Origin: Macrocystis pyrifera
Lineage: Eukaryota; Sar; Phaeophyceae; Laminariales; Laminariaceae
Reading direction: 5' to 3'
NCBI GenBank assembly: GCA_031763025.1
Contig: JASSKH010000001.1
Span: forward strand, 26,326,118-26,390,117
Length of the DNA stretch: 64,000 nt
In this document: piece by piece, positions 3,401 through 64,000 of the stretch
How the letters are laid out: every line of letters begins with the position of its first letter
Numbering within the stretch: the first letter of the stretch is position 1
Notes under the pieces: model-generated
What the model saw: only the letters and a program-made list of their open reading frames with translations
The model's database searches: none
What the model was told of the DNA's origin: nothing
Made by a program: the position numbers and the translations under genes

Positions 3401-3525
3401 CTTTCTGTCTGGTTCACGTTAGAACTGTTACGCCCAATTTGACTCGGTCCTACTAAGGGTTAAGGCCCTTTTTTTCTCCAAATCAGACTCTTTAGTGACT
3501 TACCTGGTACTATTTATCAATATTA

Positions 3526-3526
3526 T

Positions 3527-3576
<50 letters not shown>

Positions 3577-3589
3577 TAATAGTAGTAGC

Positions 3590-3621
<32 letters not shown>

Positions 3622-3622
3622 C

Positions 3623-3675
<53 letters not shown>

Positions 3676-3676
3676 C

Positions 3677-3723
<47 letters not shown>

Positions 3724-3748
3724 CAGCAGTAGTAGCAGTAGTAGTAGC

Positions 3749-3819
<71 letters not shown>

Positions 3820-3826
3820 CAGCAGC

Positions 3827-3894
<68 letters not shown>

Positions 3895-3896
3895 TG

Positions 3897-3971
<75 letters not shown>

Positions 3972-3979
3972 TTATTATT
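3526..3979 (-). repeat. (ACT)n microsatellite, about 450 bp, tail of LINE-A
   Basis: The plus strand reads AGT repeated about 150 times with scattered AGC, GGT and ATA interruptions. It abuts the 3' end of LINE-A (minus strand), whose other copies in this window end in (TAA)n. It therefore looks like a hugely expanded and changed LINE tail. The long valine/serine open frame through it is an artefact. Confidence 0.9.
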
Positions 3980-10716: not shown

Positions 10717-10936
10717 GTTACGGGAGACCATAGTAAATAGGACCAAATATTGTTATTACGGGGGTCCATAGTTAACGGGACCAAATTCTGTTAGTAAAAA
10801 CAGGTAAATATATAGGTTTTTATGTGTACCATAGGTCCTATTAACTATGGACCCCCGTAATAGTAAAATTAGGTAAGTATATACCTGGTAGGTTTTTATG
10901 TATATCGTAGGTCCTGTTAACTATGGACCCCCGTAA
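10717..10936 (-). mobile_element. IR-1 outer copy, split by a nested IR-1
   Basis: The left part 10717-10753 (TTACGGGAGACCATAG...ACCAAATATTGT) and right part 10862-10936 (GTAAAATTAGG...GGACCCCCGTAA) form one IR-1 when joined. The break is at the TA in TTGTTAGTAAAA, which is duplicated around the inserted copy. The right part also carries an extra CCTGGTA at 10884-10890. Confidence 0.92.
10756..10861 (-). mobile_element. IR-1 nested copy proving the TA target duplication
   Basis: A complete element of the GGTCCATAGTTAAC arm variant (TTACGGGGGTCCATAG ... CTATGGACCCCCGTAA) sits inside the outer copy. TA on each side is a duplicated target dinucleotide, which is absent as a duplication from intact relatives. 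This fixes the element ends at TTAC...GTAA. Confidence 0.92.
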
Positions 10937-11121: not shown

Positions 11122-11130
11122 TACCTGGTA
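11122..11130. repeat. TACCTGGTA 9-mer (one exact example)
   Basis: An isolated exact copy of the over-represented 9-mer. Other exact copies seen start at about 3501, 10882, 30222, 30229, 31609, 33782, 41680, 41770, 41861, 48855, 49961, 54981, 59651 and 60907. Confidence 0.85.
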
Positions 11131-12964: not shown

Positions 12965-13077
12965 TACGGGGGTCCATAGCTAATAGGACCTATGGTACAC
13001 ATAAAAACCTACCAGGGTATATATTTACCTTTTTTTTTACTAACAATATTTGGTCCTATATACTATGGTCCCCCGTA
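12965..13077 (+). mobile_element. IR-1 copy with CCAGGG insertion
   Basis: The ends are modified (CTACGGGGGTCCATAG ... CCCCCGTAG). Inside, AAAACCTA is followed by an extra CCAGGGTA before TATATTTA (about 13010-13018), an insertion relative to most copies and shared with 32803-32921. Confidence 0.88.
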
Positions 13078-24257: not shown

Positions 24258-24461
24258 AAAAGTTGACCCTTTTTGGACTGCAAGCATCCCGTTTTGGGGG
24301 ACAAAACTATTACGGGGGGCCGTAGTAAATAGGACCTACAGTACACACAAAAAACTATATACTTACTTATTTTTACTGGCAGTATTTGGTCCTATTTACT
24401 ATGGTCCCCCGTAATAGTCATAATTAGAGTGGTTTATCTCCAAGAACGAAACTCCAGTACT
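24258..24461 (+). mobile_element. IR-2 copy split by IR-1
   Basis: The left arm GTTGACCCTTTTTGGACTGC...GTTTTGGGGGACAAAAC precedes IR-1. The degenerate right arm GTGGTTTATCTCCAAG...GAAACTCCAGTAC follows at 24430-24460. Confidence 0.65.
24310..24414 (+). mobile_element. IR-1 copy inside IR-2
   Basis: TTACGGGGGGCCGTAG ... CTATGGTCCCCCGTAA with TA on each side. The insertion point is just left of the IR-2 centre. Confidence 0.9.
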
Positions 24462-24462
24462 A

Positions 24463-24567
24463 TTACGGGGGACCATAGTAAATAGGACCAAATATTATTA
24501 GTAAAAATAGGTAAATGCATAGGTTTTTGTGTATACCATAGGTCCTATTAACTATGGTCCCCCGTAA
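24463..24567 (-). mobile_element. IR-1 copy flanking the IR-2 edge
   Basis: TTACGGGGGACCATAG ... CTATGGTCCCCCGTAA in minus orientation (CCAAATATTATTAGTAAAAA). It begins one TA after the IR-2 right arm, 50 bp from the preceding IR-1. Confidence 0.92.
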
Positions 24568-24769
24568 TAGAGGGGGTTTAAGACAGGATAGAAGAAATAG
24601 GGTAGTTCTATAGCCACTCGGTGGCGGCGGAGCAGTGACTCCGAGTGGCTGAAAAAAAACGACTCACACTTGACCCCGCTACCGCCGAGGCAGGACTCTG
24701 CGACGATTTTTTTCTCCCTCCCATTCATTATCTCTCGCCCTTCTTTTTCTCGCTCCGTCCTGTCAACAT

Positions 24770-27901: not shown

Positions 27902-28013
27902 CTAGGAGGGGCCATAGTAAATAGAACCCCATATTGTTATTAATAGTAAAAATAGGTAAATATGTAGGCTTTTGTGGGTACCGTAGGTCCTGTTTACTAG
28001 GGTCCCCCGTAAT
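27902..28013 (-). mobile_element. IR-1 copy (27.9 kb)
   Basis: The left end is decayed to CTAGGAGGGGCCATAG. The interior has an extra TAATAG (TTGTTATTAATAGTAAAA), and the right end ACTAGGGTCCCCCGTAA is good. Confidence 0.85.
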
Positions 28014-29900: not shown

Positions 29901-30754
29901 TTCTTTCCCTGCTGGTTGCTGTGTGTATCTGGTACACTTTTCGTTTTCTGAGTTTTTTTTTTTTCGTGCTCGTTCGTACATACATATCAAAACTGGTATT
30001 TATACGAGTACGCCACGCGTACAGCAGCAGTACATACTTTTGTTCGTATTTTTTATGTACGTATCGTATATACCTGTGTGGTTGGATGGATGTACTGCTG
30101 TGCGTACTGCTGCTGCTGGCGACTTGCTTGACTGCTTGTGTAATACGAGCCTTGCACGCACACGATCTGATCGATTTCCAGTGATTGATCCTTTTCATAT
30201 TTCATGATAAAACACGATGCATACCTGGTACCTGGTACTGGTTGTACTGCAGCAGTAACTGATACACCGCCTATTAGACTCATGACTGCTGCTGCTGTAT
30301 CACAGACGGCAGCAGCATATAGACAAGGCTGCAGGCTTGATGACTTTTTTTTTTTCGAACCTCACGTACGAAGTCTAATTTGTCACGTAAGAACTTCGTT
30401 GCTGCGTTGTGAAATTAGATTCGTGAGAGTCTCTGGGTAAAATAAAATGTCTGAAGTCACCCCCCCCCTTTTCCTCACGACGATGTTCGCAGCAGTGGGT
30501 GTGGTCACTGCAGCTGATGTGGAGGGGGGCGCATTTGCCAGCTCCCTTCTTTTTTTGCTCTTCTTGTGCCTGCCGGGGGGAAGAACCCATTGCGCCTGTC
30601 GTCGTATCATGCTCGACGTGGTTTTGGAAAACAGGACCCTCGTTGAATGCAGCAGCGGCAGCAGCAGTATTCTCAATTATGTATCCCCGCTCGTGTATGC
30701 ATGAGCAGTATTGCACGAGTGCACCCGTGGTCGTCTTCCTGCTCGTGCTGTTTG

Positions 30755-31494: not shown

Positions 31495-31716
31495 GGCATA
31501 TCGTACCCACTCTTAACGAAAAATGTAAGGACCGTTGTCTTTTTTTATATTACGGGGGACGATAGTAAATGAGACCATTTTTTTTTTGGAAAAAAACAGG
31601 GAAATGTATACCAGGTATGCAGTAGTTTTTTTGCGTGGACCGTAGGTCCTATTTACTATGGTACCCCGTAAATAGTATTAACAACAGTTTTACGGTCCTT
31701 ACATTTTCCGTCCAGA
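31495..31716. mobile_element. IR-3 hairpin split by IR-1
   Basis: The left arm AAAATGTAAGGACCGTTGTC and right arm AACAGTTTTACGGTCC-TTACATTTTCCG are inverted repeats around an IR-1. The right flank TCCAGAGTGGTGC is shared with other IR-3 pieces (35320, 49950). Confidence 0.6.
31550..31671 (-). mobile_element. IR-1 copy with a CCAGGTA insertion
   Basis: The ends are TTACGGGGGACGATAG and CTATGGTACCCCGTAA. Between AAATGTATA and the T-run lies an extra CCAGGTA (31611-31617), at the position where other copies carry CCTGG or CCAGGG. Confidence 0.85.
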
Positions 31717-31867
31717 GTGGTGCTACGTTGACCAGTTTTACGTAGGACCCCCAGAAAATGCCACTAAAACCATTTGAGATGTGCAGCCTTGTGAGTATTT
31801 TCCGTATTTCCGTAGAGGAGTGCTGTTAAGACCTGGTACTTGTTGTGCCTCTTGGGGCAAAAAGTTG

Positions 31868-32672: not shown

Positions 32673-32802
32673 AGCTGGTTACGACCGCCTCTAATTCGTA
32701 ATTTGAGAGAGAGAACATGCCAGCTGACTGAATATTGGGGAGGCTTAGATGGTTATAAAATGTCGAAATGTACCTTTTGTATTGATGGTCAGACTGGTAC
32801 TA

Positions 32803-32918
32803 TTACGGGGGGGGGCATAGCAAATAGTACCTACGGCACACATTAAAACCTACCAGGGTATATATTTTCACCTTTTTTTTACTAGCAATATTTGGTCCTA
32901 TTTGCTATGGTCCCACGT
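32803..32918 (+). mobile_element. IR-1 copy with CCAGGG insertion
   Basis: It starts TTACGGGGGGGGGCATAG and ends CTATGGTCCCACGTAG. It carries AAAACCTACCAGGGTATATA, the same insertion as the copy at 12965. Confidence 0.88.
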
Positions 32919-33672: not shown

Positions 33673-34089
33673 TCCTTATAAACCCTTTTTGCAGAAATGA
33701 TGCACACTAATACCAAGTAGTAATAGTTTGTCCCCAAAGCGCACCCCACCGTTTCGGCGACAAAGACAGAATTGCTACTCGTACCTGGTACGGGGTAAGA
33801 TTTCGAGTTCGACCATGTTTGCTGTATGATGGGGAACAGGACACAAAGAGCCCTCTATTCAGCGTTGCACAAACAGCACGCGACTCCGCGTAAGATACAT
33901 TTGGGAGTCATGGAAAGTCGGTTCGACTTGGTGCTTCAAAACGTAAGAAATACCTTGTTCTATGCACGTGTTTTGGAATGTTGGCGTAGGGCATGCACGC
34001 TCTTGCCTCATGTAAGAACTAGGGCTCACTACTGCTCCACTCTCTTTTACTCCGACACTTACCGTGGTTTTATTATCGGTTCTTTGTCG
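33673..34089. other. no gene; IR-2 fragment
   Basis: AAGTAGTAATAGTTTGTCCCC (33714-33734) is an IR-2 centre/right-arm word. TACCTGGTA lies at 33782. Nothing else is recognised. Confidence 0.5.
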
Positions 34090-35715: not shown

Positions 35716-36126
35716 AGCTGACCAGGTGTTTTATGCCTGCTAGTTACAAAACGATAGTTACAATAATAAGTGAGGGCAGTCAATCCCGTCAATCAGTCTT
35801 TTACCGCGCGTTTTTTTTCTTGATTTTAGGTCCCCATCCTGGGCGCTACGGCGCCCTCATCCACCGTTTCGTGTCTCCAATCTCGCTGGTGCATGATACC
35901 GTTCTGATCGATGTTATAAGGTACTTTTTGATGACCGCAAAAGGTACAGAAGTACCTTATATTTCCGATCAGAATAGTACCCTGGTGCTGTTTTTTTGGG
36001 TAGCTTTTCAGGAGAACATGGTAATCAGAACCAAATCTGGTCTGTGAAGGTTACGGGGATACGTGGTTTTTGGGTCCATGCTAAGTTCTGATTAGTTTGG
36101 GCTGTGGGCCTCTGTAGCACCAGGTA
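35716..36126. other. no gene; IR-3-like word
   Basis: GTACCTTATATTTCCGATCAG (35958-35978) is an IR-3 arm. Nothing coding is supported. Confidence 0.45.
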
Positions 36127-40909: not shown

Positions 40910-43900
40910 TTCAGCAGCAGCGACAGCAGCAGCAGCAGCAGCTGCTGCAGGCGTCGCAGGCTGCCGGGACCGCGGCGGCCGTCCCTACGACGTCGGCGGC
41001 GGTGTCAACAGTATCAGCTATGGGTAGCAGCCCTGTCGTGTCCCCCGCGCTCTCCGCCTCGAGTCTTGGGAGCAATGGCATGAACCCTGGAGGAGGGGCC
41101 GTCCCTTCTCCTCTACAGCGCAGGAGGGTGGGGTCCCAACCTGGAGCAACAACACAGCAGCAGCAGCAGTTGTTGCTGCAGCATCAGCTGGCGCAGCAGC
41201 AGCAGCAGCAGCAGCAACAGCGGGCCGGGCAGGCGACTCAGTCATCCCCGGCTGCGGCAGCAGCAGCGGGGTCTGCTGCCCCTCATGCTGCCGGTGCCGC
41301 GGCGCAGCAACACGTGAGTAAATTAGGTGCAAAATAGCCCACATTATTTTCATGTGTTGGTGTTTCTTGTTACCATTCTGTTGCTTTTTTTTCTCTGTTC
41401 TCTGTCGCGGTACGTAGCAGCTAGCCTGACAGCTACGGTGGTGCCTTAGGCTCGTGCAGGATGCGATCTCTGCTCCGGCGTACGCTCGTCCTTACGTATA
41501 TACGGCGATTTATTTAGGCACCTACTAACTACAGTGTGGGGGCTAAATACTAAATACGATCACGCTGTTGTGACTTACGAACATGCCTTTTTTTATCTTT
41601 ACCAACAACCTCAACCTCACAGCTATCTCGCAGGACTAATAAAGTACAGTATCACTTACAGTAGAATGAACACTGCGAGTACCAGGTACCGGTACGAGTT
41701 TTTTTTTTTTTTTTTTTTTTTTTTTCTGAAGCAGGCGTTAGCTGTGCGTTCAACGAACGCATCGGTTAATACCAGGTAGTCGGTATGTAGGCCGCCGTGC
41801 AAGCTGTACGACAAAGGTCGGCCGCGGGCGTGGTCTACATTCCCCATGCATAGACCGAACTACCAGGTATTAATATGAAGGTCGGTTACTCCAGTGCCTG
41901 GGCACATGTAGCGCCACGAGGTCTCACGTTTTTTTTATTTGCAAAAAAAAAAAGTAACCGACAGCAAACCCCCGTTGCGGGTCCTTCCACCCAAGAATTT
42001 GGGACCAAACTTGTCGGACGTACGTATGCGTATGTAATGTGGCGTTTTTTTGTGCGGTGGTGCAAGTATATAATAGGCGACCGGCGAACCCAGGGTTTTG
42101 GCGCCAGACCGCTTGGAAGTAAAACGAAACAGTTTGGCTTGATCTAGATGATCTAGCTCCTCATGTGCGGTTGTAAGAGGGTGTGCAGGATCTATCTGTG
42201 GTGCAGTACAGATCCAAGCCAGAAAACATGCGCTAGATCGGGTGCGGAGTACACGGATCCCTCTCGGCAACATGGGCTGAATAATCATACAGGATCGGGA
42301 ATAGATCTATCTATCTGCGCCCGGAGTGATCTAGGTCATCAAGTGGGAATCACAACGATCTGTAGATGTGTGTTTATATCCCTTGAAATATCTGACTATC
42401 GATAAGACCTTTACGCAGCGCACGCAGTACGCGCGAGCAAAATATGACACAGGCAAGATTGCAAAACTGAGCGATTTCGACGATATTCTCTCTCGATCTC
42501 TTTGATTTTTTCCCGCGTCCTTTGCCGGAAATATAGGGAGCGTCCGCACATTCCTATGAAGAACAAATGAGCCTTATATTTCCGTCCACAACAGTGGGGT
42601 GTTTTATTTTGTACATGTATACATGCGTGTATTCATGCCGGTGTTTCATAAGATGTAAAACAACAGCTGTAAAATCGAGCATGACGTCGAAACCCATCTC
42701 TGCAAGCAGAGGTGTGATCCTTGGATCTCGGGTACTACTATTACGGGTCTATAGTTGACAGGACCTATGTCATACATATATATCTCGGTATTTTTACTAG
42801 CAATATTTGGTCCTATTTACTATGGTCCCCCGTAATATTGTTATTACGGGGGTCCATAGTTAACGGGACCAAATTTTCTTAGTAAAAATAGGTAAATATA
42901 TAGGTTTTTATGTACACCATAGGTCCTGTTAACTATGGACCCCCCGTAATAGTACGTACGGGTTTTTTTCGTGTGGCCTCATGCAGGAAATGTGTCCCGT
43001 ATACCTGGCACGTACGTATGTATCGTATGTATGGGGAAGACGAAATCTGAAGCTGCGGAATCCGAGGAGATTGCGCGTCTGTATTTGGAACCAAGAAACG
43101 ATTCAAGTAATTTTTCCGAGGTGGCACGTACAGCAGCAGCAGCAGCAGCTACCGCTGTCTGTAGCTCGCCACGAGCGTATTCGCATACTCTACGTGTTAC
43201 CACTGTGTACCGAAAATGCGAGGAAAGTTTTGATGCATGGTGCAGCAGTATTTTACACAAATGGTTCTTGTGTTCCGAGAAGAAGAGTGGTACGGGCAAA
43301 AGGGGTCAAAGTAAATCTGCCTGCATTCGATAGCAGTAGAATCGATCAATCCCTTTCGATCTCCGTCGACCCACTCACGGTGCATTTTCTGTCTTTTCTT
43401 TTCTTTTCTTTTTTGTTTCCCCCCCCCCCCCCGGCCGCTCCCTCCCCCCCACTGTCCCACCTTTTCCCCTCAGGCGACTGGTAACGGGCTCTCGTGGCAA
43501 TCGAACAACGACATCCCCTCGCGTAGGGAAATTCTGGGGAAAATCGTGACATACTTGAAGCAGCGGAAGCCGAACCCTCGACCTGAGTGGATACAGAAGG
43601 TGCGGTGTTCACCCTTGATACGAACTGCTCGTATGCCTTTCGGGGATTTTGAAGTCATTGTCGTCGTTTTCGCGCCGTGCATTGTAAAGCGGGGGGGGGG
43701 GGGGGGGGGTGCGGAAAAAGCGGAGACCGTATTTTTTTTGGTTATTAAAAACCCTTTTGGAACTGCACGGTACAAAAATACGTATCTCAACTCTAATTTC
43801 AAGTAATTTATCTCCAAAACGGGAGTGCAGCCACTGCTGCTGTGTTCCGTGTTTTTTTTGTTTTTGTGTTGATTGTGTTTGTGTTTTGTTTTGTTTTTTC

Positions 43901-46900
43901 TGTAACTTTGTTTTCAAAAACTTTTTTTTTTGTTTTTTTTGTTTTTTTTTTGAAACAGGGATAACTGGTATAACGTACCGGCAGCCGCGGACGTAAAATA
44001 TTATTCAAGTAACTAGCTGAAGGCTTAAACCCTTTTAGTATCGCAGTCCCGATTTGGGGACAAACCAGTCTAATTCCAAGTGATTTGTCCCCAAAACGGG
44101 ACTGCGGTACTGAAAGGGTTAAGGCTTCGTTTTGGGGCACGCGATTATTTTTTCTTGTATTGAGTTGTGACGTCATGTGGATTTTAATACCTTGTACGGT
44201 CTGGGAAAGCCTCTGCGTTTTTTTTTCTCCGGTGTGGCTTGTGTTGTCACAATTTCAATTTTTCGTGCATGATCAACGTGTGTATGTGTCGTGTTCATCG
44301 TGTGATCGGTGCGAACTACATGGCCAATAGCAAAATTGACAACGAAATGGAAACCTCCTTCCCAATTTTGTTGTTTTACGTGTTTTTTGTCGCGGTTTTA
44401 CAAGTAGTTGTTTGCACTTGTAGATTGGAAAATATCATTATAGTGCAGTCTATCTATCCAAGCCGATTTTTTTCTTTTTTCCAGATGAGCGAAAAACAGA
44501 AGGAGAGTGAAATGAAAACCAAAGGGTTTATCGAAAAGCGATATCAAGAAACTCTACTACTGCTGTTCCGATGACCGATAACTGCTGTGCTGCTGCTGCT
44601 GCTACTGACGACATGCTTTTCTTCTGAGAATCAAACCCGAACGACAAATCAACCATGTGACACATGCACATTACCACAGGCGGACTAGGTAGATGTTCGG
44701 TCGTATTGATTCAGTTTGCAAAACAACAATCCGTATTCACTCATGTAGATGACATGCATTCAGCACTCTCCATGTTCACCTATTTATCTATAGATAGCAT
44801 GATGCATCGCAGATTTGACTGCTGCAAAGTGTTACGGCCGCGATGGTAGGTATTACGCGGGACAATGGTAAATAGGACCTACGGTACACACAAAAAACCT
44901 ATATGTTTCCCCCATTTTTACTAACAATATTTGGTCATATTTACTATGGTCCTCCGTGATAGCATGATGCGGTGCCCACGTTTTCGGCTTCAAACTACTT
45001 TTTGTACGATAGTTGGAATGGGATAATAGAGTTAATAATGGATCCTTTTGGCGGTGGTGGGAGGATAATTTGTTGACTCTGGAAGGCTTTCGTGCATGCG
45101 CGCTATTAATACTTGAGTATAATAGTAGAACCAGCAGTACCGATGAGAAAGAACAGTTTAATGTGAGGAAAACAACAACAACAACAACAACAATATAAAT
45201 AGACTTCACGTGTATATATATACAACAAATGTCAGAAAAGACCCCCCTAAAACCTACTGACTGTATGCAAACCTACACACCTCGTAGGACTTGCGATCGG
45301 AATAACATACGTACGAACCTTGCAAATATGAAGCTTTGATAGTTTTTTCCGATCTCACACCCTAGTTAACAAGTGTACAAAAGTACAAATAGAAATACCG
45401 CTCGCTGCTCATAGCGTTCCCGCCCCATGGACTGCACCTGTATTATACAGTACTGTAGTATATTGAGGTACGTAAAGAGTGAAGCTACGTGCGGAAGTAG
45501 TTTGTGTGCTCCTGGTGTATGCGTGCTTTTATTGTATGCGAGTGGTGTTGTTGAATTAGATTCGCGATAGAGTTACATTGTGCTCTCTTGGTAACTTCGC
45601 GCTGTACTATTAATATTAACATTAAAATGTATATTAATAGTAGACACTTACACAGCCATTCGTGAAGTGGGTGCACTATAACCACGTGCCTGGTAACTAC
45701 GATAGATATTGCACGTTCGTTTTGGATATCGCTTCGATGTCGAACTTCCGATGTAGTCGTTAATGAACGTGTTTTGCCCTCCACCCCCCTCTCTGGCATC
45801 TCTCCCCTTTTTCTTGTTGCTGGCACTGAACGAGCGCTTCGATGGTAGCGAATATCGAAATCGTGTCGAGTACGACAGTTTTTTTGCTCGGTATCGTACG
45901 GAACGTGATTATCGTCAGCGGTATCGTACGTGTCGGTTGCTAGTTTTGTTATCGGTATCGTATCGGTTACTGCCTTTGTCGTCAGTATCGTATGGTATCG
46001 GTTACTACTGTTGCTATCGGTATCGTATCGGTTACTGCCTTTGTTATCGGTATCGTATCGTATCGGTTACTACTTTCGTTATCGGTGTCCTATCGGTTAC
46101 TGCTTTTGTTATCGGTATCGTATCGGTTACTGCCTTTGTTATCGGTATCGTATGGTATCGGTTACTACTTTTGTTATCGGTATCGTATCGGTTACTGCTT
46201 TTGTTATCGGTATCTTGTCGGTTGCTACTTTCGTTATCGGTATCTTATCGAACTCGATTCCGACATGGACACCCAACACGATTGTACGTGTACCGCCCTG
46301 GACGGAAACGTGAAGACCGTTGTGTGTACATATATGAAGACCAAACGGTCCTCACAAATATCCGCCCATAACGGTACTGACTGTACCACTCTCGCCCCCA
46401 ACTGTAATTTTTCAAGGACCGTTTGTGTGGTAATATCGAATCCAAACTTTCCTTGGATTTTGGCACGTGATCGTGGTGTGTACAGTATGACGCCCCAAAT
46501 GTCTTTCGCGTTTTTCTCTTGTTTGGGGGGCTGGAGCTGTGACTATAGGGGTTGCTGCCCTACGGAGCGTAGATTTCGCACATATATGTTGCGCTCGTTT
46601 TTGAGCGCTCGCTTTTCTCGACAGACGGCGGTAAGGTACGCAGGGGGTGCTCAAGTCGATAAGACTATGTTTTCGGAAGGGCTCTCTCTCTACGACCATT
46701 TTTTTTTTTTTTCTTGTCCCGCCAGCACCTTTTGTATTGTCCCCTCAAGAAGTTTTCGACTTGGATATTAAATTTACAGCTTTAACCCCCCGTTCGGGAC
46801 TGCAAAACATTTTTCGCACCTAGGGCAGATCGTGTTGTCTTATGGGCAAGCAGTTAGATTCCGTATCTGTGTTCATCTTCAGCCTCGTGCTGCCGGATCG

Positions 46901-49900
46901 GGGTGGTACAGTCGGCACGATCCACTGCTTGTGGTACACGTTTACTGGGTTGGATCTGTGCTGTACCTGGTGGTTTGTAGAGATCCCGCATAAGTTCTGG
47001 TACCGACTGTGGATGATCTGTAGATGATCTGACAGCAGATAGATATATCGTGATCTGACAGCAGATAGATATATCGAGAGTTGAGAAGCGCGGCCTCACG
47101 AAACGCCTATCACGGGGGTGCCATAGTAAATGCCTGGTAGGACGTACGGTACACACAAAAACCTACATATTAAAACCTATTTTTACTAACAATATTTGGT
47201 CCTATTTACTATGCTCCCCCGTAATAGTACGTAGGGTGAGCGCGCTGCAGCACGAGTACAGTATATCACGTATATATGTATGGATATAATGCCGCGAGAG
47301 CTTATGCAACTCCTCGCGGTGTAGTTCCGGTACGAAAGGAAGGTATCATGCCTTTGCCCCTGTATCCCTGCAACGCCGATTATTAATAGTGGTATAGAAG
47401 ACTACCTTGTATTGACTGTTTCCTTTTCAAGCCACCGCCAGGTGTACGGATAACCCCGCGAACCCCGCGAAAGCTTTGTGCAACTCCTCGCGGGGTGGTT
47501 CTGGCACTAAATGTAGCATGGCCTTAACCCTGCAACCCTGCAGGGCCTGTTATTAATATTAATAGTCGAACCATTTTTGAAGTGTCGTATTTCCTGGTGT
47601 TGTGCTGTGTTGTCCGAACCTAAAACTCTGGCCGAGAATATAGTACATGTAAAAAGTCTCGTGTTGTATATTAAACGGGGATGGTTTTCCCGGGCGGAGG
47701 GAGTATCATAGTATGAATGAACCCTCTGGAGACGTAAAAGTCAGTCGAAATGGGACGATTTTTTTTGTCGATTGCGGCATTAACCCAACGCACCGAGTAT
47801 ACGAACCCGACCCTGCTGGTTGCACGCTACGGGGTGACTCATTCAGTACCTAAACTACGCTGCAAGGGGTTGTACAGCATGCTCACAGGATGGTACTGTT
47901 AATACTCGTACTGTAGATGGTCCAACCTGTTCTCACCTCGGACAGATCAAATATTCCCACAGTTCATGATCTATAGCTATTTCAAGGCAGATCTATTCCC
48001 GATCTGTAAATAACCCACAGTAGCCCATTTTTCTTCGAGTTTCCCCCCCTGCAGTCCCATATGAGGGTTTATGGCTGGGTCGACACATTCAGTATCGTTT
48101 TTTTTTTTTTTTTTTTTCACTGTGAGGATTTGTACAGCACTCTCCCAGCATGGTACTCTTTCCACGGATCACGTCAGATCTGATCGTATCAGATCATCAT
48201 TTGACCCTTGTTAGGACTGCAGTCCCGTTTTGAGGACAGACCAGTCAAATTTTAAGTGATTTGTCCCCAAAACGGGATTGCGTTCCTAAAAAGGGTTAAT
48301 GATCTGGTTATTTCAGGGCAAATATGTTCCTGATCTGTGTCGTCTGGTCTGACTCATGTTGCGGGGTGGAAGCCGTACTACAGCAGTCTGCATGATCGAG
48401 AACCAAGTCTGCTGGGTTTGGATCTGTACTACACAGATCACCCGCAGCACGTTGTATCGGCAGGTCAGGATGTAGATGATGGATCTGCAGATGATCTACA
48501 GTAGATGGTGATCAGATCTGATCTGATCTGATCTGATCTGATCTGATCTGTTAGAGACGTGTGTGCTTCTCGTACTGCACATGACACTCTCAGTAGAAGG
48601 TCGTACAGTATCTGGGTCCCATAAGGCCACGAGTCTTGTGAATACATCGGCACCATTGCCGATTGCCTCGATTATTGTCCCGATTATTTGGGCTGGGAGT
48701 ATAGCATGTCAACTTGGGGTCTACTTATTGTTCAGGTGGCGAGGTTAACCAACTAGCCCGACTTGAAATCGAGCCACAAGCGCACCAGTATAATACCAGT
48801 ACACAAATGACGCAGAACGCCCCATTTTTTTTTTTTCTGTACGCAACCATTGAATACCAGGTAGCTGTAATAAATATACCTTTGATGATCCTCAGCCTGA
48901 TCCGATTTGTTTTTGGTCGGCGGATCTCTCCCGCCTCTGACCGTCTGTCCGCGCGGTTTCTTCGCCGAAGCGTACCCCCTCCGCGCCTAAACCGCCGGGC
49001 GTCGGAGGATCCGCCCACTCAGCGCCGTAGCGCCCGCGCGAATCCTTGACGTTGAGATCTCCGAAAGAATCTCCGAAAATCCCTGCCCTGTCGGTGTTTT
49101 GGCCCATGGTCTCTTGACAGGGTGTATGCATTTGCGTGGTTGTTTCCGGCACGTCCTCTCCAACCTCCGACCCGTGGTAAGGGTCTGTTGAGAACTGCCA
49201 CCCATAAAAAATTATGCTAGGATATATGAGAGATCGCATGCCACCTACAGCCAACAGCACTCACGACGGCCAGCAACACTTTTGGTGTGTACGCTATCGT
49301 ACAGCGGCAGCTGCAGTGGAGCTGTAGTGCGTGGATGCGGAGATGTACAGCAGCTATTTTGCGGCCACCTTTCTACGGAGCTGGGCTGTCCGTCATCGCA
49401 TACTCCCTGAGTTCGGAGTTAGTTACACGGCTCTCTAGCATTTCGCCGCTTTTTTGGTTAATCGACAAGTATTCGTCAGCATTCCGCCGCCTTTTCCAGC
49501 GTTCATGGAGCGTGGAGGTCCGTCCGCACGTTCTCCAATCTCTTGGCATGGAGTCTCAGCCTCCTCATCCTCTACGTTATATGCCCATCACGCAAGCATG
49601 CGACCGGCGGCCGTGGCCAGGCCGCTGGCGTAGCCCCTATTATAGCCAACTCATAACTATAGCATGTAGTCGCCGACTTCAAAGTCAGCCAAATCACAGC
49701 ACTACCGATTACGGTATCGCCTCATTGCCCCGCTCATTGTCCCGCGTATTGTCCCGCTCATTGTCCCGCCTGGCGTTTTGATTCGGGCACAACCTTACGT
49801 CGAGAAAAAATATTCCCCGCCGCAACTGCGATATTACCTGGTGTGTGGTAATGCGTTATTATTTCGTTTGTGTGTTTTACCGTGTTCGAAAAGGTAAGAA

Positions 49901-52900
49901 ACGTTTCGGTATTTGTATTGATGCGCCAACGGTCCTTACATTTTCATCCGTCCAGAGCGGTACCTGGTAGCAATCACGGTACGTATGCGACATTTGAGTA
50001 AAAGTTGGAAGTTATTTGGCTCGACTTTTGCGCCGAACTCGATGCTTTTTATGAGTGCTTCGTGTGCCGGTATGGTAAGCGTGGGAGACATGAAGCAAAC
50101 ACGCGAAATGCGATAACACGTTCAAACCTGGTGATTCTTTTCCCATCTATTTTTTTTTACTCTGATACCGATACTTATTTCGTGTTTTCCACTATCGGGT
50201 CTCCATTCTGCGTTGCTTCTTCTACCCCCTCGTTCTATTTTTCTTTCTCTAATTTCTTGACCTCTCTTTTTTTCGTTTTGATTTTCTTTTCTTGTCGGTG
50301 TATACTTGGTACATTCTCTCTCTTGCTAAATAATATGTGTCACTTATCTCTCCTTCCCCTCTCCGTTCTCCCTCCCCTCTTTTTTTGTACCCTTCCTCTC
50401 TCCTCCCTCGTCAAAAAGGTGCCTCTCATGGCCAAGCGCTTAGAAGACAGCCTTTACCGGAACGCTCGAAGCTTCAAAGAGTACAAGGACCACACCACGT
50501 TGAGACAACGCCTGCAGCAGCTGGCGGCCCGTCTCGGCACCAACACACAGCAGAACCGAGCTAAGGTCGGTCAGCCCGAGACGGAGAGGTTGAACTTTGG
50601 GAGCAAAATACTCAGCCCTCACTGTCCGAGAATATGGTAGCCGTATCGGATATGATAATCAATATCAAACGATAGTTGTATTCCCGGCCATAGTGATATT
50701 GAGTTTTTTGTTTGATTTTAACGAATTTCCCGGATTTTTTTGTGTGAGATAAATTCTGCAGCCGTAGGAGGCTCCGCATCCATATCGCGCTAAGATGCTG
50801 CCATGCTTGCCGGAGGCGCGGGCGGGCGTTAGTTTAGCAGCTGTTTCGACGGGGGGGGGGGGGGGGGACGGGACGGGGGGTACACGTACCCCTTCTTTCG
50901 TGTATTGTCTTGGCCCGGCTTGGCCTGTCTTACCTTGTCTTGTCTGTGCGGGTCTTGCTTTGTTTCGTCTTGTCTTGTCTATTGTGGTCATGTCATGTCT
51001 TGTCTTGTCTTGTCTTATCTGTTGCGGTTTTGTCTTGTCTCGTCTTGTTTGCTGTGGTGTTGTCTTCTCTTGTCTGCTCTTGTCTGTTGTGACGTTGTCT
51101 TTTCTTGTCTTGCTTTGTCTTGATATGCATGGTATTGGGTTGGGCTGGCTTGGTTGGTCTTTAGGCTTTGCTTGGGCTGCGTTTGGCCGGGCCTTTTGCC
51201 TTTGTACGCTGCCCCCTTGAACCAACATCCGCGTATGTGTATGTATACTTCCACCCTGTTCGCAATTGCTAGGAGGATTTTGAGCATTAAAGTTACGGTA
51301 ATAACCAAATGGTCTTGACATTTCCAGACAAAGTGAGCTGCATTTTTGACAGCTGTGTATGTGTTTTCGGTGGGCAGTTATGTCGGGGGGGGGGACGCTA
51401 CGGTACTTTTTTTGCTGAAGTATACCAGGTCATCGATTTTTTCTATCGCCCCCCCCCCCCCTCGCCCTCCCTTCCCCTCCCGTCCTTCCTCCTCCTTCTC
51501 CCACGGTCGTGCGCCCGCTGCTGTTTGAACTCTGCACCCTACACAACGATAACGACGACCACGATCACGACAACAACATTAACATCCACCACACAACTTC
51601 CTCAACCATCACCGCCGCCACCACCACCACTACCAACCACCACCACCGCCACCAACATCATCACCACCACCGCCACCACCACCACCACCCCCAACAACGA
51701 TCCCACCACCGCCACCTACAACCATAACAGCAGCAGGCGGCTGGACAAGCCAGCGCTGCCGCGGTGATGGCCTCCCCTGGAGCGGCAGCCGTCGCAACCT
51801 CGGGGGGCGGCGGCATAGGCCTCATCGGTTCTTCCGGCGGCATCGCCGGCGCCGGGACTGCCGGCGCCGGCTCGTACCCCATCCGTTCTGGCGCCTTACC
51901 GTCTTCCTCCGCCCTCGGGGGAGGGGTGGGGGGAGTTCCAGTAGGCGGTATCAACCCAGCGGCTGCTGTGCCGGGCGTTGGGGTCGGGATTGGTATCACG
52001 GTACCGATCAAGTCGGACCCATCCTCGGCCCTCAGCAATGGGGTTTCCAGCTCTGGAAGCGTTGGCGGTGTTGGCGGTGTTGGCGGCGTTGGGGTTGTTG
52101 GCGGCGGCGCGGGAGTGGCCCGTACTCGAGTCCCCTCGGCGAGACCCCCGCAGGGCTAAGGATCGGCGGAGGTCTCGGGAGGGGGGGGATCGTAGGGCCG
52201 GGCGGTATCGGTGGCCTCGGCGGAGGCGCTGGCAGGACGGGGACAGGGGGCGGGAACGACTCCTCGTCTCCCCGGACGTTCGTCAACATCAAGGACATCA
52301 ACCCCATGATGAGCGGCGGCAGCGCTTCGACTCCTATTAGCAACGGGTCGGCCGCTAGCAGCAGGGGCGGAGGCGGCGCGTCGAGCGTTGGCGCGGTCGA
52401 CGGCTCCGCCGCGTCCGCCGCGTCCGCCGCGTCCTCGGTTGCGAGCGGGGTGGGGGGTGTTCCTCTAGGGATGGGTGGGGTGGGGGGGGGGGGGGGGCGG
52501 GAGGGGGTGGTGGCGGGGTTTCGGGCAGCGCGGCGCAAAGCCCGGGGGGTTTGATGCGGAACGGGAACCTTACGGCGGGAGGGGCGGGGGGCATCGGAGG
52601 CGTGGGGGGCGTCGAGGAGGAGGGGCCATGGTGTCGTCTTCGGCGAGCGGCAGCGCTGCGGTGGCCGGTAGTGGTGGGGGTGGCGGCGGCGGGGGGGGAG
52701 TGGGCGGGGCTAGTGGAGGCGTCAGCAGCGGGGCTGGGGGGGCGCGGGGTGGGCAGCAACGGAGACGGAATGCAGAGTTTACCCCGGAAGACCGGAAGGT
52801 GAGAAGAGGGTTATAGGGTGTGTGTGACCTTTTTTTGTGGGGCTGTGCCCTCAGCCAGGTATTGTGGTTGCTGTTTTTCGTAGGGTGTTTGTTGTGTCTT

Positions 52901-55900
52901 CGGAGAGAATTGAGAAGTTGCTATCCTGTGGTTTTGAGAAACTCCTTTGCTGAGAGGATAATGTTTCTTTTAGTTGAGCGTCAGACAAGGCTTTTGCCCA
53001 TTTTGAAAAGGAAACAAAAAAATGGTCTCGTACGTACACATACATACGACACTTTTCTTTTTTTGTAGCCTTTCGTTAAAACGGACAAATTCGATCCCCC
53101 ACCCGCTCCTTCCTCTGCGTGATTCGTTGAGGTTTGCACGATAGTGTATGGTGTGGTGTGGTGTTCCGTGATGTGGTACGGTTTCATTGTGTCGCGATGT
53201 CTATTTTTCGGTGTCGATTCGGAATGGAGAATCGGTCGAAGGAAAACGCGATCTGGATTTCCGGAAGGTCGACAAAATCGCGATTTAGAAGTGGCCGTTT
53301 CGATCTTGATCTGCACACTGGTTATGTATGGTTGTTGTTTGGGTGTGTGTTGTGTTTTTGTGGGTGTGCGGTGACAAGCATTCAGATCTCGGACAGACGA
53401 TGATCTATCTGGTCCATCTACAGATAGATCATCTACTTCCTCACCTGCCTTTGTGAGAGATTGGGCAGGGTCTGCATAGTATAGATCCAATCCGGGAAAC
53501 ATGCGCTAGGTCATCTATTACGGAGAACCGTAGTAAATAGCACCTACGGTACACACAAAACCTATATATTTCCCTATTTTTACTATCGAAGTTTGGTCCC
53601 ACTTACTATGGTCCCTCGTAATATAGAGTATATATACGGCTCCGACCCGGCAACATGAGCTACAGTAGATAATACCAACCAGGGATCTATCTATCTATCT
53701 GCCTTGATTGATCTACTAATAGATCATCAACTGTAAATCGATTACACGCCCGATGTGTGGAAGCTTTCAGCGGAACGGGGTCAGGGGTTCTTGCCTTACC
53801 CCCGGCGATGACAACGCGATAAGTTGTCTTGGTTGCTATCGCTCTCATACCGTGTTCGTTTGCCGCGGTCGTCCGTGCTTTTGAGGTTGTCCGCACCGTG
53901 ACCGATTTTCGCCTGGAAACATGATTCCCCTCTTGTTCTCGGCTGTTCTCCTCCATGTGGAGTTTGTTCGCACGCCTTGGTTGACCTGGTTTTGGCTTCA
54001 TGCTGTCTCGAGTTATGTGTGCTTGTGCACCGGGTATTGATGTCATCGAGTGTGATTTGTAGCAGCGGCAATCCCCCTCCTCCACCGGGTTTCGAGGTGT
54101 TGTTTTACATGACTGTCTACGTTCGTTTCCAGCTATTTGGTTTTGGGTGTGATGGTCACGGCAACCGCCACCCCTTCTCCTTCCGGCCTGTCCCTCTGTG
54201 GCGCGCTATGTTGTGCTATGCTGTGCGATGTTGTGTTTTGTTGACGCCTCTGCAGGCCGCCCTTCGACAGCAGCAGCAGCGACTCCTACTCCTGCGACAC
54301 GCGAGCAAGTGCCCGGCTGAAGGGGAGCAGTGCAAGGTCACCCCGCACTGCCAGGCGATGAAGCGGCTGTGGAAGCACATTGCCGAGTGCAAAAACCAGC
54401 AGTGTCACGTGCGTTGGTTTGCTTGCGGGTACCCCCCCCCCCCCTCACCCCTTTCCCCTCCTCCCTCTATCTCGCCTCCTTCCTTTCCTTCCCCTTTCCG
54501 TTTTGTTCGTTTTTGAGCTTTTCTGTTCTATTTGCTTGTTTTAGTGTTTTGTGCTTTGTTGTCTGTATACTTGGTAGCATGAGTCTTGATGCTTGCAAAA
54601 ATCTATCCTGTTCTAATTCCAAGTAGTTTTTCCCATAATTTAGGGGGTGGGTGCGGTTAACCTGCATTGTCCCCTGCTGCAAAGGGTGTTTGTGTGCGGT
54701 TCATAATCTATTAGTACAAAGGTGGCCGGAAAATAGTCCCGTTTGGACTCTGATACGAACATCGAACAGAGCTTAGCTCATATTGCCGGCCAGTGTTTGT
54801 TGATTGTCGCTACATAACTGTAATGAGTTGGAAGGATAAATGTGCTTCCACCAGGCATACGCTTTCAATTTCAGTCGTACGTATTCACGATTAACAGTGT
54901 ATCTGGCAGGTCTTTGGGACGTAGAGATGCGCTCCCTGTGAGGGAGTAGTTTTTTTTGCACCTGGTACTGCTGCACCTTGTACCAGGTACAGATTATGCG
55001 CTCCTTCCGTCCCCGCCTTTCTTCCCTCCCTCCCTCTCCCCGTCTCTCCTTCCCTCTAACCTCCCTTCCTCCGTCCCTTCCTCCGTCCCTCCCCCCCTTC
55101 CTCCATTCCATTCCTCTCCCTGACGACTACACGACGCGCCCGCCGCCGCCGCCTCCGCTGTAGATTCCCCACTGCGTATCGTCGCGATTCGTGCTGAGCC
55201 ACTACCACCGCTGCAAGGACCTTAAGTGCGCAGTATGTGCTCCCGTCCGGGAGGTTATCGCGAAGAGTCATCAGAGGCAGATGACCGTCCAGGTGATAAA
55301 GAGAGGACCTGCTTCGCCGTAACTGCTGCTGCTGCTGCTGTATGTGTTGGTGTTGATGGAGGTGGTGTTAGTTGTGCCCCTGTTGTTGTTGTTGCTTTAC
55401 GTTTGTTATTGTCGTCAGTTGTTGGGTGTGCGTATAAACACCTGCATGCACATCGTCCCCCCCCACCCCACCCCCGCCTATGTCCTGTCCCCTTCCTCCC
55501 TCCACCAAAACCGTCTTATATTAGGAGGCACGTAACCGGGGGGGTGCCTCAGGGCAGCCCGGGGTGGCCGGAGGGTCGGCGCAGCTCGTACCCGGAGCGC
55601 CTATGGCGAGTCACGTGGGGGGCCAATGGGACGGGGGGGTCGGGGACCGGTGGTGGCAATTTCTCTCACCACGATCTGACACCAGCCCAGAGGCAGCAAC
55701 TGGAGGCGCAGCAGCGGGTGCTGAGTCCGCAACAGGTAGGCACGGGCGAAGGGAGGGAGGGAGGGTGTAGGGCGTTGTCACGTCTGCTGGGAAGCTGTTG
55801 ATGGTGTGGCGGTGTCGTCCGTGTTAGTTTTGAGGTGTTGTTGATTATTTTGGTTCTACTTAATGCTGTGGATAATATTTTACGCACTACTGTCGTGTCC

Positions 55901-58208
55901 GGTTCCGGTACGTAGCAGTGCTGTACACACTAGGGTAGTGACAGCAGTGCTGTAGTGCTGTTAGTGTTGTTGGAAGCATGCTGGTAGACGCTATTGATGC
56001 TACTGATGCTGTGGATTTTTCTCCTGTTGTGTGTCCCATGACGCTATCGATCCAACCCAGACCACGCACGAACCTCATAAGCGCACCCATGTACAACGAC
56101 ACGACGTGAGCGCCATTGTCTGTCACGTGGATGGTCGGCGTGTTGTGGTTGGTAGAGGTGGTGTGGTACACGCTCATATGAGCATGCCGATGATCCTGTC
56201 ACACACCCGCCATCGTCAACCCAGCCACTAGCAGCGATTCCCCCGGAACACAGTACTCGTTGCACTGATGTCCCGATATTACCTCGTACAGGACCGAGAG
56301 AAAGGACTGCGAGACCGGTCCGCATACCCTGACCCTCACGTTAGCCAACAGCATCCTAGTGTACCTGCCGTCAAGTGTTGACGGCTGGGCATTGGCAGCC
56401 TCAATCAATAGACAGCTACGTACGAGTATGTACTGTGCTGGTGCCCCCAGCCTACATACCAAGTATGCAACTATTACGGGGGGGGGGATAGTTAATAGCA
56501 CCTACGGTACACACAAACGCCTATTTATATATCCCTGTTAATACTAACAATATTTGGTCCCATTTACTATGGTCCCCCGTATTATTATACTGTAGTTTAG
56601 GGTGCTGTTAAGCCCTGTAGGACTCTGCGTGGGACAAATTACTTGGAATTGTTGCCAGATATTTGTTCATGTTTGTACACTACCTTATTAATAGTAGAAG
56701 AGTTAACTGGTGCCCCTCTGACCGGAAATATAAGCACCCTTTGGTCATTCATTTGAGTATCAAGCGGGCCTTGTATTTCCGCCCAGAGTAGTATGCCTCT
56801 TGCGGCCCGGGTGCACAATTGATTTCCACCTCTTTGGGCGAATCTGTAAGGATCGGTCGGGTAGTCCTACTGCTGTATTAATGTCACCCAAACGGTCGTT
56901 GCATTTTCGGACGGAGCGATACCTTCGTCCTGCTGCTGTGTAGTTGATGGCACGGACGGTCTGGAAGCGCGCAGACGTTCAAGCTTTGGCGCGCAGCGCT
57001 CGTGCCGTATTGCTCAGTCGGGACTATTTACCAAAATGCAATACGGTATTAATGGTGCAATACAGCAGTAAGGAGTCCCTATCCCTCTATAGTGCCGGTA
57101 TCCGCCAGCCAACTATCGTACGTTTTTTTTTTTTTTGGCGCCCCGGAGAGGGAGAGGAAACCGCTGTCCACACATATGTCTGTATGTCTGTAGCTATATA
57201 TGGCAGCGGCAACCGGTGGAAGTGTGGCGAGCTTAAGCTTCTTTTTTTTTTTTCACCAACCCGTCGGAGGATGAAAACATGAAAAAAAGAAGAGAAAAGA
57301 AAAAGGCGCTACTCCGCACACTTATCACGCTGGTGAATCCCATGTGCGCCAAGCGGTTCCACAGGTACGTACTATGTCTGGCAACCGGCACTATAGAGGG
57401 ACCACTCTTTTACATGTGCGCGCTTTGCATGTTGAAGTCCCGTTAAGCCCGAGGCTGCCATCAATCGCCGCTTGTTTTACGTCATGTTTTGCCCTCTGAG
57501 TGTGCGAAAAAAGAGTCGGGGTTCGTAGCACTCTGTCCCAAAATTTATTGACCATGTGGATGAAAGGTTAAGGTTCGGTCCTCGTATGACGGGACAGAGT
57601 GGTGTCTGGACACTTTACAGTAGCAATATATGCTACTGCTGTTTCAGATGTAGTACACGGACACTTTTTACCGCTGTGCTATTTCTGGGGACCATTTGTA
57701 AAATGGAACTTGCGGTAAACAAAAACCTATATATTTACCTATTTTTACTGACAATATTAGATCCTATTTACTATGGTCCCCCGTAATAGTGGTGTGCCAC
57801 TGTCTGTTGTGTCCGGGTAGTGTTGGCAATACTGCGGCGTCGGGGGTTCTGTCGGTGCTACCGCTTGCTGTGTCCGGGTACGTACTGCTGTAGGCGATAG
57901 TACTGTCTTGCGATTTAGGTCATCTAGATCATGGAGGGGGGGGGGGGGTTGTAATTGCGTGGTGCAGTGCGTGATCGTGCCCCGGTGCTGCTGGAACTGT
58001 GCTAGAAGCTCGGGTACCCGCCAGAAATACAATCCGGTCTTTTTGCCTGAGTTTTGTGTTCATAGTGTTGCCTGGTTTTTTGGCTAGTTTGCACACTACA
58101 GTGGTCAGCATCTTGTTCGCTTTCGTTCATTGTCGCTCGTTTTTGCTCACGGTCTTGACAGGCACGCCAGCAGCAGCAGCAGGCGCAGGCACAGCAGCAG
58201 GCACAGGC

Positions 58209-58473: not shown

Positions 58474-60430
58474 CGCAGGCGCAGCTGCTTCAGAGCCAAC
58501 AGGCAGCGGCATTGCATCAGGTATAACCGACCTACCGAGATCGAAATCGAGGCGACGCCATCAGGCAAAACAACGAATCCACCTTTACCACAAGGCTCCA
58601 TCGTCCCAAAAACTCAAAAATATTCCACACGCCAGAAAGACCACGAGTCAGATCATCTGGGTCCTATCTCACGATTTAGGTCATCTAGATCCTATAGTCT
58701 GCCGTTATATATAGTGTGTAGTGCAGGATCTATATGGTGCAAACCCAAGTCAGGAAACCTGCCCTACTGTACTGTACATGCAGATTATTGGGCTCCCACG
58801 CGGCAACGTGAGCTAGGTCGTACAGATCAGGGATCTATCTGCCCTGAATGACAGATCTACTACTGTAGATCATGGAGGGGAAGCCGATGATCTGTTCGAA
58901 GTGCGGAAATATTATGTTACTAAAAGCAAAAGCTGCGCCTTTTGTGTGTGTGATTGTGTCGGAGTCTGTGTTTACATGTTGTGCCTGTTTGTGCGACTGC
59001 TGTGGCTGTGTGTTTGCGTCTGCCTGTGTGTTTGTGACGTTTCTGCTTGTCTTGTGACTCGCTGTGTTTTATCATACGTGTGCACGTGTGTTTTTCGTGT
59101 TGAGCCCCTTTTCGTGTCCCACATCTTCATCCTTCATTTAGTGAGCCCCGTCACCGTACATGTGTTCCGTGCTGTTTTCCCTCTTTGTCTTGTTTTGTCT
59201 CATGGGCAGGGGTCGGGATCGATGGACCAGTTTGCTAACGCCCATGGAGCGGAAGCCACCAGGAGCCTACGACGTACCACGTGAGGCGGACAGATACGGC
59301 AGTCCTAGACCCTCTATATATAGGGCCGGTATGGCCAATATTTCCGGCACTAACTGTAGCGGCAAACCAACCGGCACTAATTACTCCGCACACTACCACC
59401 CTGGTGAACCCCATCTGTTTGGGCCGAGCGATTCCACGAGCACTATAGCGGGCAACCGGCACTACTCAACCGTCCCTTTGGAGGGGCCACTATTACAGAG
59501 GACCATAGTAAATAGCACCTACGGTGCACACAAAAACCTACATATTTCCCTATTTTTTCTAACAAAATTTGGTCCCGTTTACTATGGCCCCCCGTAATAC
59601 TTTTTTTTTTGTTATTATTATTACTGTCGCACTAAAGATGGTATATCTGGTACCAGGTACATGGTAAAGGAAACATGTGGTACGGTGCGGGAATACTGGG
59701 GTGTGGTATGGGAGAAAGGTAAATGGTATGGGAGAAATATGGCCTCTGTTGTGGGAGAACTGTCGTGTGGTAATGGAGAGATGTCATATTTTAGACCTGT
59801 TATATTATTATGAATTTTGGTGCAGGCATGATGCACAAAAAAAAAAACGTACGGAAGAGCTGTTTGCGGTGAATTTGCCGAACGCTCTCGTCTGTGGTTG
59901 TTTTTTGTCGTTGTTGTCGTTGTTCTCTTATTACGGGGGTCCATAGTTAACGGGACCAAATTTTGTTAGTAAAAATAGCTGAATATATAGGTTTTTATGT
60001 ATACCATAGGTCCTATTAACTATGGACCCCCGTAATAGCTGTTGCTGTTGTTGCTGCTGCTGATGGATGCTGTCGTCGCTGCTGTCGCCAATATTGGTGG
60101 CATCAGCAGTCTTCACCGAAACTGCTGTGCTATCGTCTCGTTTTCCCTCACCTCGCCCTCCCTACGCCCCCCACCCCGATCCCTTCGACGAACCTCCTCC
60201 TCTTCACACCCGTCAGCTCTAAAAGCGGCGCGGCGAACGGAAAGCGATCGCCGGGCTTGCTGGGGGCGCCGGGGGCCATGGGCCCCGCCGGCCCCATTGT
60301 GGGTGACCCTAACGCGATCGTTTCGATGAGCGGTTCCAGAGGTGCCGCTTCGCTGGCTCACCAGCAAGCCATGGCGGCAGCGGCGGCGGCGGCGCGGGGC
60401 GGGGGACAGGTGTCTTCTTTCCAGCAGCAA

Positions 60431-60675: not shown

Positions 60676-61252
60676 GCCACACCTGGCCGGGGTAGCCGGC
60701 GCGGCGGGGAAGGGGGCACTGGCGTACCCACCGGGGGCGCAGGTGGCGGGGGCACCGGTTCGCACGGTTCAACAGGTGCCGTTTTCTTTCTTTTCTTTTT
60801 TCTTTTTTCTTTCCTTCTTTTTACTGGCATGGTTGCAGCCTGTCACGTGTTGTCATGGTAAAACCGCATTTTTTTTGTTTGTTACATTTTTCTTGTATTG
60901 ACAGCGTACCAGGTAGGCTACTACTGCTGCGCGAGTATATTCTTCATTTTCCTGTGTGATTATTTTTTCTTTTCTGAGCATTTGGTTGTGTGAATGTTTT
61001 TGTGTATGTGGTATTTTGTGATAGGTTTCCTCTTATTTCTGACGGCCGCCCGCGCCGTGCCGATGAGTACGGTAATGTACGCACTTTTTCGCCGCTTTCT
61101 GGCCCCGCAGCGGTGTTGTACACTTCGTCCGGGAATATCATCCACGCTTGATAATCATCTCAGACTCCAAGCGTGGCTTATTTTCCCGGTCAGCTGTAAA
61201 AACTATTGAAGCACTCGGGCATTCTACGTATTTTTTGTTTGTTTTGTCTGCG

Positions 61253-64000: not shown

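Follow-up and report, generated by a model that had tools for sequence, protein, structure and literature searches.

TACCWGGTA, a dispersed near-palindromic word in the genome of Macrocystis pyrifera, as a probable excision footprint of a TA-target DNA transposon

Introduction

A stretch of 64,000 nucleotides from the kelp Macrocystis pyrifera (assembly GCA_031763025.1, contig JASSKH010000001.1, positions 26,326,118 to 26,390,117; hereafter the window) carries many scattered copies of one short word, TACCWGGTA. An earlier note, made from the letters of this stretch, had reported about 15 exact copies where about 0.5 would be expected by chance, and had described the word as a near-palindrome with TA flanks. 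The question raised by this locus is what could have placed so sharp a word at so many positions. In this study, we report that TACCWGGTA is very probably the excision footprint of a TA-target, TA-duplicating DNA transposon of the Tc1/mariner or Stowaway type. This reading is based on exact insertions of 7 and 8 bp in repeat copies, on a symmetric target signature, and on a sister system in which the word TA-TTAA-TA accompanies a miniature inverted-repeat transposable element (MITE), MITE-1. A second family of ~80-bp hairpins, MITE-2, and especially its CCA-tipped subfamily, is put forward with roughly even confidence as the source of the word.

Materials and methods

The genome searched comprised 537,376,219 bp in 223 contigs, in which the window is G000:C189:26326118-26390117, on a contig of 26,510,325 bp. 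A 264-kb sample was composed of the window and 20 further stretches (L005-L024) from a single common scaffold, and the counts below refer to this sample unless another scope is given. Expected numbers were obtained from 100 dinucleotide-preserving shuffles for the window and from a second-order Markov model for the sample, and TACCWGGTA read backwards was used as the genome-wide control. Statistics of the target signature pool both flanks of a site, so that 57 sites give 114 flanks.

Insertions were sought at trap sites, that is, sites inside repeat copies. Overlapping BLAST hits were merged in 40-bp bins, and the homologues counted are paralogous repeat copies. An all-against-all scan of the sample for gaps of 3-40 bp yielded 405 places. 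Ends of MITE-2 were identified by a profile search of 270 kb, and the end counts include the ends that built the profile model. This search superseded fuzzy searches with the MITE-2 end sequence, which gave few matches (one gave 11 against 4 in shuffled sequence).

Results and discussion

Abundance and character of TACCWGGTA

All 15 coordinates given in the earlier note proved exact, and these 15 sites stand against a mean of 0.45 and a maximum of 3 in the shuffles of the window. The note had counted two 9-mers; as TACCTGGTA and TACCAGGTA are reverse complements of each other, they are one word on two strands. The sample contained 57 sites against 2.58 expected. Genome-wide, where the note had allowed that counts might lie near expectation, 121,279 copies were found and the reversed control gave 2,421, a ratio of ~50x; the word occurs at ~1 site per 4.4 kb. 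As a crude check on the note's remark that the word is concentrated in non-coding DNA, the frames free of stop codons that cross the 15 window sites were compared; the longest at each site has 55-202 codons.

The note had further allowed that the word might be internal to one larger repeat, and an origin as the internal or terminal word of a large repeat family or satellite could be suspected from contig C1, in which pairs of TACCWGGTA are regularly spaced, and from the existence of a separate family with TACCTGGGTTCAG. The 5-base contexts of the 57 sites were, however, distinct in 49 cases on the left and 52 on the right, and therefore the word is no internal word of one repeat; moreover, homologues that extend across the site exist for only a few of the sampled ones. 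This explanation was rejected on the distinct contexts, and we regard it as the least credible of those considered.

The many one-mismatch variants mentioned in the note do exist, chiefly as TACCTGGTG and TATCTGGTA, but as a class they are only mildly enriched (101 against 59.1 expected). Foremost are TACCTGGTG (14 against 2.45), TATCTGGTA (10 against 2.5, in 276 kb) and TACTTGGTA (8 observed); TGCCTGGTA was observed 6 times. Each of the eight variants listed in the note keeps only one flanking TA, and the one placed at 45686 starts at 45688. TACCTGGTG, an A-to-G change at one flanking TA, occurs in the window at 25326, 27612, 36118, 46964, 49835, 63815 and 63822; it is enriched while CACCTGGTA is not (4 against 2.45), a difference between strands that goes with the central T. 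TACCWGGTA is sharply defined, if somewhat decayed, and is no degenerate binding motif.

Length variants were also found, namely TACCCTGGTA (5 against 0.78 expected), TACCATGGTA (4 against 0.54; being a palindrome, this is 2 sites) and, slightly enriched, TACCGGTA (16 against 9.0 in both-strand counts, i.e. 8 sites). Such variants, as from imprecise joining, are a property of excision footprints, and so is a symmetric target-site preference around TA, which these sites show: A is present at -6 in 61/114 flanks (p=1e-11), T is preferred at -7 (p=1e-4), and T is avoided at -1 (7/114; p=2e-3). Doubles spaced by exactly 7 bp were observed twice against 0.018 in simulation, and their overlap fits reuse of the scar's own TA as a target.

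Local clusters of CCWGG occur in L021 (7422-8677, 6 in 1.3 kb) and L012 (5358-8898, 5 in 3.5 kb), while over the sample as a whole the sites are at most suggestively clustered (8 pairs at distances of 8-200 bp against 3.7, p=0.06). Two further dispersed words, TACGAGTA (44 against 10) and TACAGCAGTA (15 against 0.9), could be additional footprints or motifs.

Exact insertions at trap sites

The earlier note had proposed to test whether orthologous sites in related strains lack CCWGG together with one TA, and paralogous repeat copies show just this. At site 10882, which lies in a copy of MITE-1, 33/44 spanning homologues lack exactly 7 bp and read TATAGG in place of TATATACCTGGTAGG; TA therefore became TA-CCTGG-TA. 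At 47131..47139, also in a MITE-1 copy, TGCCTGGTA (TG-CCTGG-TA) replaces TA, and 38/41 homologues have one TA only and lack exactly 7 bp. The longer variant TACCAGGGTA (TA-CCCTGG-TA) was found in two MITE-1 copies, where exactly 8 bp are absent from 45/58 homologues (13010..13019) and from 39/52 (32851..32860). At 31609 the homologues lacking the stretch have scattered gap sizes, with a net 7-bp gap in 13/49, and two insertions seem to be present together.

In the gap scan, 20 gaps measured 7 bp and 24 measured 8 bp. A duplicated TA went with CCAGG alone in the 7-bp class (2 entries, both from site 10882), and in the 8-bp class with CCAGGG (3 entries, two sites), AAAACC (3) and AGTATG (1). For an excision footprint, TA-X-TA would be expected at the filled site and one TA only at its empty homologues, and the trap alignments show this pattern.

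The sister footprint TATTAATA and its probable source, MITE-1

A second dispersed palindrome, TATTAATA (TA-TTAA-TA), occurs at 54 sites against about 1.7 expected (~30x), with 88/108 strand-counted contexts distinct. It too was found as an exact insertion in a MITE-1 copy of the window (Table 1), and a comparison of L007 6804 with 6874 likewise has TATTAATA in place of a single TA.

MITE-1 is a dispersed and very abundant element of ~109 bp with the structure TA-TTACGGGGG...CCCCCGTAA-TA and a TA duplication. The commonest TA tip at repeat-alignment boundaries in the sample is TA-TTAC (1,134 alignments), and the second, CGGG (249 alignments), is the same MITE-1 edge read two bases on. In 18/25 element-sized end pairs (103-126 bp, any flanking dinucleotide allowed), TA is present on both sides. 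A TA target duplication with terminal inverted repeats (TIRs), which is characteristic of Tc1/mariner elements, was observed for MITE-1 and for MITE-2. Many of the window's most frequent non-simple words (CCCCCGTAATA and others) are also explained by MITE-1.

Next to MITE-1 ends, C stands at -1 in 53/77 flanks and A at -2 in 45/77, and the flanks of TATTAATA sites share this signature (C at -1 in 55/108, A at -2 in 67/108). Because of the TTA tips, the TA duplication and this common flank signature, TTAA with a TA on either side is most probably what MITE-1 leaves on excision.

A site under selection for a transcription factor or for an origin or insulator protein would also be near-palindromic, abundant and dispersed, as TACCWGGTA is. 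Such a site would not be expected to originate by the insertion of exactly 7 bp into repeats otherwise without it, its single-base variants would not lie near background as in a sharp word, and a second, unrelated word, TATTAATA, behaves alike. A transcription-factor motif was rejected on the sharpness of the word and the exact insertion, and protein binding in general is very improbable.

MITE-2 as a candidate source of CCWGG

MITE-2 is a diverged family of ~80-bp hairpins whose ends resemble TA-CC(A/G)CTCTGGACGGAAATATAAGG, with TA-CC(A/G)CTCTGG tips. The profile search returned 37 ends at E<=1, of which 26 reach E<=0.02, and 12 paired elements with ends 64-215 bp apart; 19/37 ends start at TA. 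Three elements of the sample form a CCAG-tipped subfamily, and a pair of these (L021 7171-7253 and L012 3144-3223) is 95% identical over 80 bp, the L012 copy being without its right tip. In the TA-bearing ends, R is found at -1 in 16/19 (p=0.02) and C in 1/19, unlike MITE-1 (p=3e-7). Inverted pairs flanked by TA are in excess for CC as tip dinucleotide (26 against 5.1), and likewise for TT (84), CG (64), GA (50) and CT (33); therefore the CC excess is not specific. An Rfam scan of the window gave none at gathering scores, and no match to MITE-2 or MITE-1 ends was obtained in IMG/VR, where records of this genome may be excluded.

Sleeping Beauty and mariner, as described in the excerpt of PMC7827188, cut 3 nt inside the element, and the 3-nt 3' tails become the footprint. 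In the mechanism we propose by analogy, staggered cuts would leave 3-nt tails from the element ends. Tails of TTA could pair over 2 nt (TA) and yield TTAA. Tails of CCA would overlap at the last base only, as an A:A mismatch, the repair of which to A or T would give CCAGG or CCTGG; such a one-base overlap would explain both the central W and the odd length. Failure to overlap would produce the rarer CCATGG, and a CCG tip would give CCGG; TACCGGTA is enriched only slightly.

Several observations weigh against the footprint reading or against MITE-2 as its source. The preference for A at -6 is not significant in MITE-2 ends (8/19, p=0.08). Only 5/19 TA-bearing ends have a CCA tip (one weak), the others being CCG (5), CTA (3) and various (6), and the CCAG-tipped elements appear scarce beside the CCWGG scars (3 against 57 sites). 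Among the listed MITE-2 ends, only one exact footprint abuts (49961) and one variant (35979); a footprint at L022 2797 abuts a doubtful MITE-2 element (E=0.25). At window position 36124 a TACCTGGTG adjoins an end of MITE-1, and therefore abutment alone does not identify a source. An all-pairs scan of the sample for elements with CCWGG at both tips in the same stretch (<=9 kb) found no such element, only weak or low-complexity pairs, and the DDE_3 transposase (PF13358) was unmatched genome-wide. The exchange of TG for one TA, as in the enriched TACCTGGTG and in TGCCTGGTA at 47131, goes with the CCTGG strand. It does not follow from a plain TA duplication, nor does the CCCTGG variant follow from the 3-nt tail scheme.

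A different, unseen TA-target transposon may instead be the source, with ends CCTGG/CCAGG and a 5-nt overhang that pairs at 4/5 bases. This proposal concerns the source and the cut and would likewise make TACCWGGTA a footprint. In its favour, the 5-nt word is uniform (57 sites against 5 of CCCTGG) and almost a palindrome, as from self-pairing 5-nt tails, and the CCA tip is absent from most MITE-2 ends. However, no element pair with such tips occurs in the sample, the CC tips at repeat boundaries are only CCAG (L012 3144 and L021 7171, both CCAGT) and CCTA, and the published overhangs and footprints in the excerpts compared are shorter. We consider such a transposon possible, though doubtful.

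The footprints (57 sites) outnumber the recognisable CCAG-tipped elements (3) in the sample and are uniform, which would also be seen if the word were the relic of a programmed or very frequent excision, resembling that of internal eliminated sequences, with a fixed repair outcome. Ordinary repeated transposition combined with decay of the elements fits these numbers too, and a programmed process appears improbable.

If TACCWGGTA is an excision footprint, the number of TATTAATA sites genome-wide, extrapolated from the sample, is of similar order. The many CCWGG scars and a probably similar number of TTAA might then record more than 100,000 excisions of tiny TA-target elements, a suggestion that we make tentatively. 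Were it so, scars would far outnumber the surviving CCA-tipped elements, and excision would have been exceptionally frequent and perhaps developmentally regulated. End-joining would resolve the same 3' tails nearly identically each time, a natural experiment on double-strand-break repair. The footprint reading by itself, if right, would allow the choice of target, the pattern of cutting, the outcome of repair and the age of the events to be measured in the sequence without further material. It would also make certain short palindromic 'motifs' of brown algal DNA products of transposition and not of regulation, which matters for motif discovery.

Features of the window

The positions of the footprints and elements of the window are collected in Table 1.

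Table 1. Footprint sites and elements located in the window (strand "." for all rows)
Feature	Position	Basis
TACCWGGTA site	3501..3509	word match
TACCTGGTA at TA within MITE-1 copy	10882..10890	trap alignment
TACCWGGTA site	11122..11130	word match
Tandem double TACCTGGTACCTGGTA, two units with common TA	30222..30237	word match
TA-CCAGG-TA then TGCAG-TA within MITE-1 copy	31609..31617	trap alignment
TACCWGGTA site	33782..33790	word match
TACCWGGTA site adjoining a TA-CCGG-TA	41680..41688	word match
TACCWGGTA site, inverted pair with 41861	41770..41778	word match
TACCWGGTA site overlapping TATTAATA at 41868	41861..41869	word match
TACCWGGTA site	48855..48863	word match
TACCTGGTA abutting MITE-2 element end, TA common to both	49961..49969	word match and MITE-2 end
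TACCWGGTA site, 22 bp from a CACCTGGTA	54981..54989	word match
TACCWGGTA site overlapping TATCTGGTA (59644)	59651..59659	word match
TACCWGGTA site	60907..60915	word match
TA-TTAA-TA in MITE-1 copy	27938..27945	45/57 homologues without exactly 6 bp
Full-length MITE-1 example, 109 bp including target-site duplications, TA-TTACGGGGG...CCCCCGTAA-TA	24461..24569	
MITE-2 hairpin, 83 bp	49880..49962	right end E=4e-7, left end E=0.09
MITE-2 hairpin, 83 bp; right TA then CCCTGGTG	35897..35979	profile search
MITE-2 hairpin	56713..56793	profile search
MITE-2 hairpin	46291..46375	left end E=4e-5, right end E=0.4
Partial MITE-2, CCAG-tip subfamily	32731..32799	
MITE-2 ends 215 bp apart, MITE-1-like copy (31548-31673) between	31507..31721	profile search

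Other repeats were also noted. A separate dispersed repeat around GAAAGCCCGGTAAYTACCTGGGTTCAGTCACTGGGAACGTATTTGT is present at 24011 of the window and in L007, L009, L016 and L017, and the TACCTGGGTTCAGTCACTGGG family is a separate dispersed repeat. The window contains a (TAG)n array of 445 bp (3527-3971) and, elsewhere, CAG-rich tracts in long stop-free frames. A bromodomain (PF00439) was found at 62928-63422, downstream of long poly-Q frames; these together may be one CBP-like gene. A Copia-type gag match (PF14223) at 852-2702 was just over the cut-off. A reverse transcriptase fragment (PF00078) at 17141-17815 is overlapped by a perfect tandem duplication of 187 bp (17700-18063).

Comparison with known systems

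The canonical Stowaway TIR is CTCCCTCCGT, and it is absent from these elements, the tips of MITE-2 being CC(A/G)CTCTGGACGG and those of MITE-1 TTACGGGGG. The MITE-2 end may bear some likeness to Stowaway ends. Stowaway and mariner elements leave the target-site duplication together with short end sequences, according to the excerpt of PMC4561436, and that of PMC1925063 gives Stowaway footprints in grasses as 2-4 bp beside one TA and 1-2 bp beside the other, and end fragments of 1-4 bp for Osmar5. The 5-bp scar would therefore be ordinary for Stowaway on these figures. Stowaway and Osmar5 resemble the kelp system, as far as these two excerpts go, in having short TA-duplicating hairpin MITEs and footprints with both TAs and bits of both ends. 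They differ from it in that the grass footprints are heterogeneous, with five types at one locus (PMC1925063, in part), whereas the kelp scars are uniform. Across DNA-transposon superfamilies in two rice genomes, the part of PMC4423477 consulted gives 94 excisions, 8 of them perfect and the rest with deletions, filler or both.

Sleeping Beauty, Tc1/mariner and pogo elements are alike in their TA target duplication and in a footprint formed from the 3' overhangs of the element ends (PMC7827188, in part), and Passer, a pogo-type element, shares a palindromic target around TA, AAGTACTT (PMC9976928, in part). In the excerpts compared, footprints are 2-4 bp for Tc1/mariner and 0-3 bp for ZB (PMC7913693), and 0-4 bp for Passer (PMC9976928). 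The 5-bp CCWGG is longer than all of these, a further point against the proposed origin; theirs are 0-4 bp and few, unlike the 5 bp (also 6) and 121,279 word copies of the kelp. For piggyBac, the excerpt of PMC7351741 gives TTAA as the target, and TTAA occurs in the sister footprint as well; in the kelp, however, it is the inserted part between the TAs and not the target, and MITE-1 duplicates TA.

A text search of one literature collection did not find TACCTGGTA or TACCAGGTA as a whole word, and a limited search on brown-algal transposons and genome-wide footprint surveys returned nothing on this phenomenon. The type of event is already known; its number and uniformity are without match in the literature compared, as represented by these excerpts. 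The published footprints in them come in small numbers, from genome comparison or excision assays, while this one kelp assembly would, if the footprint reading is right, hold ~121,000 copies of a single footprint.
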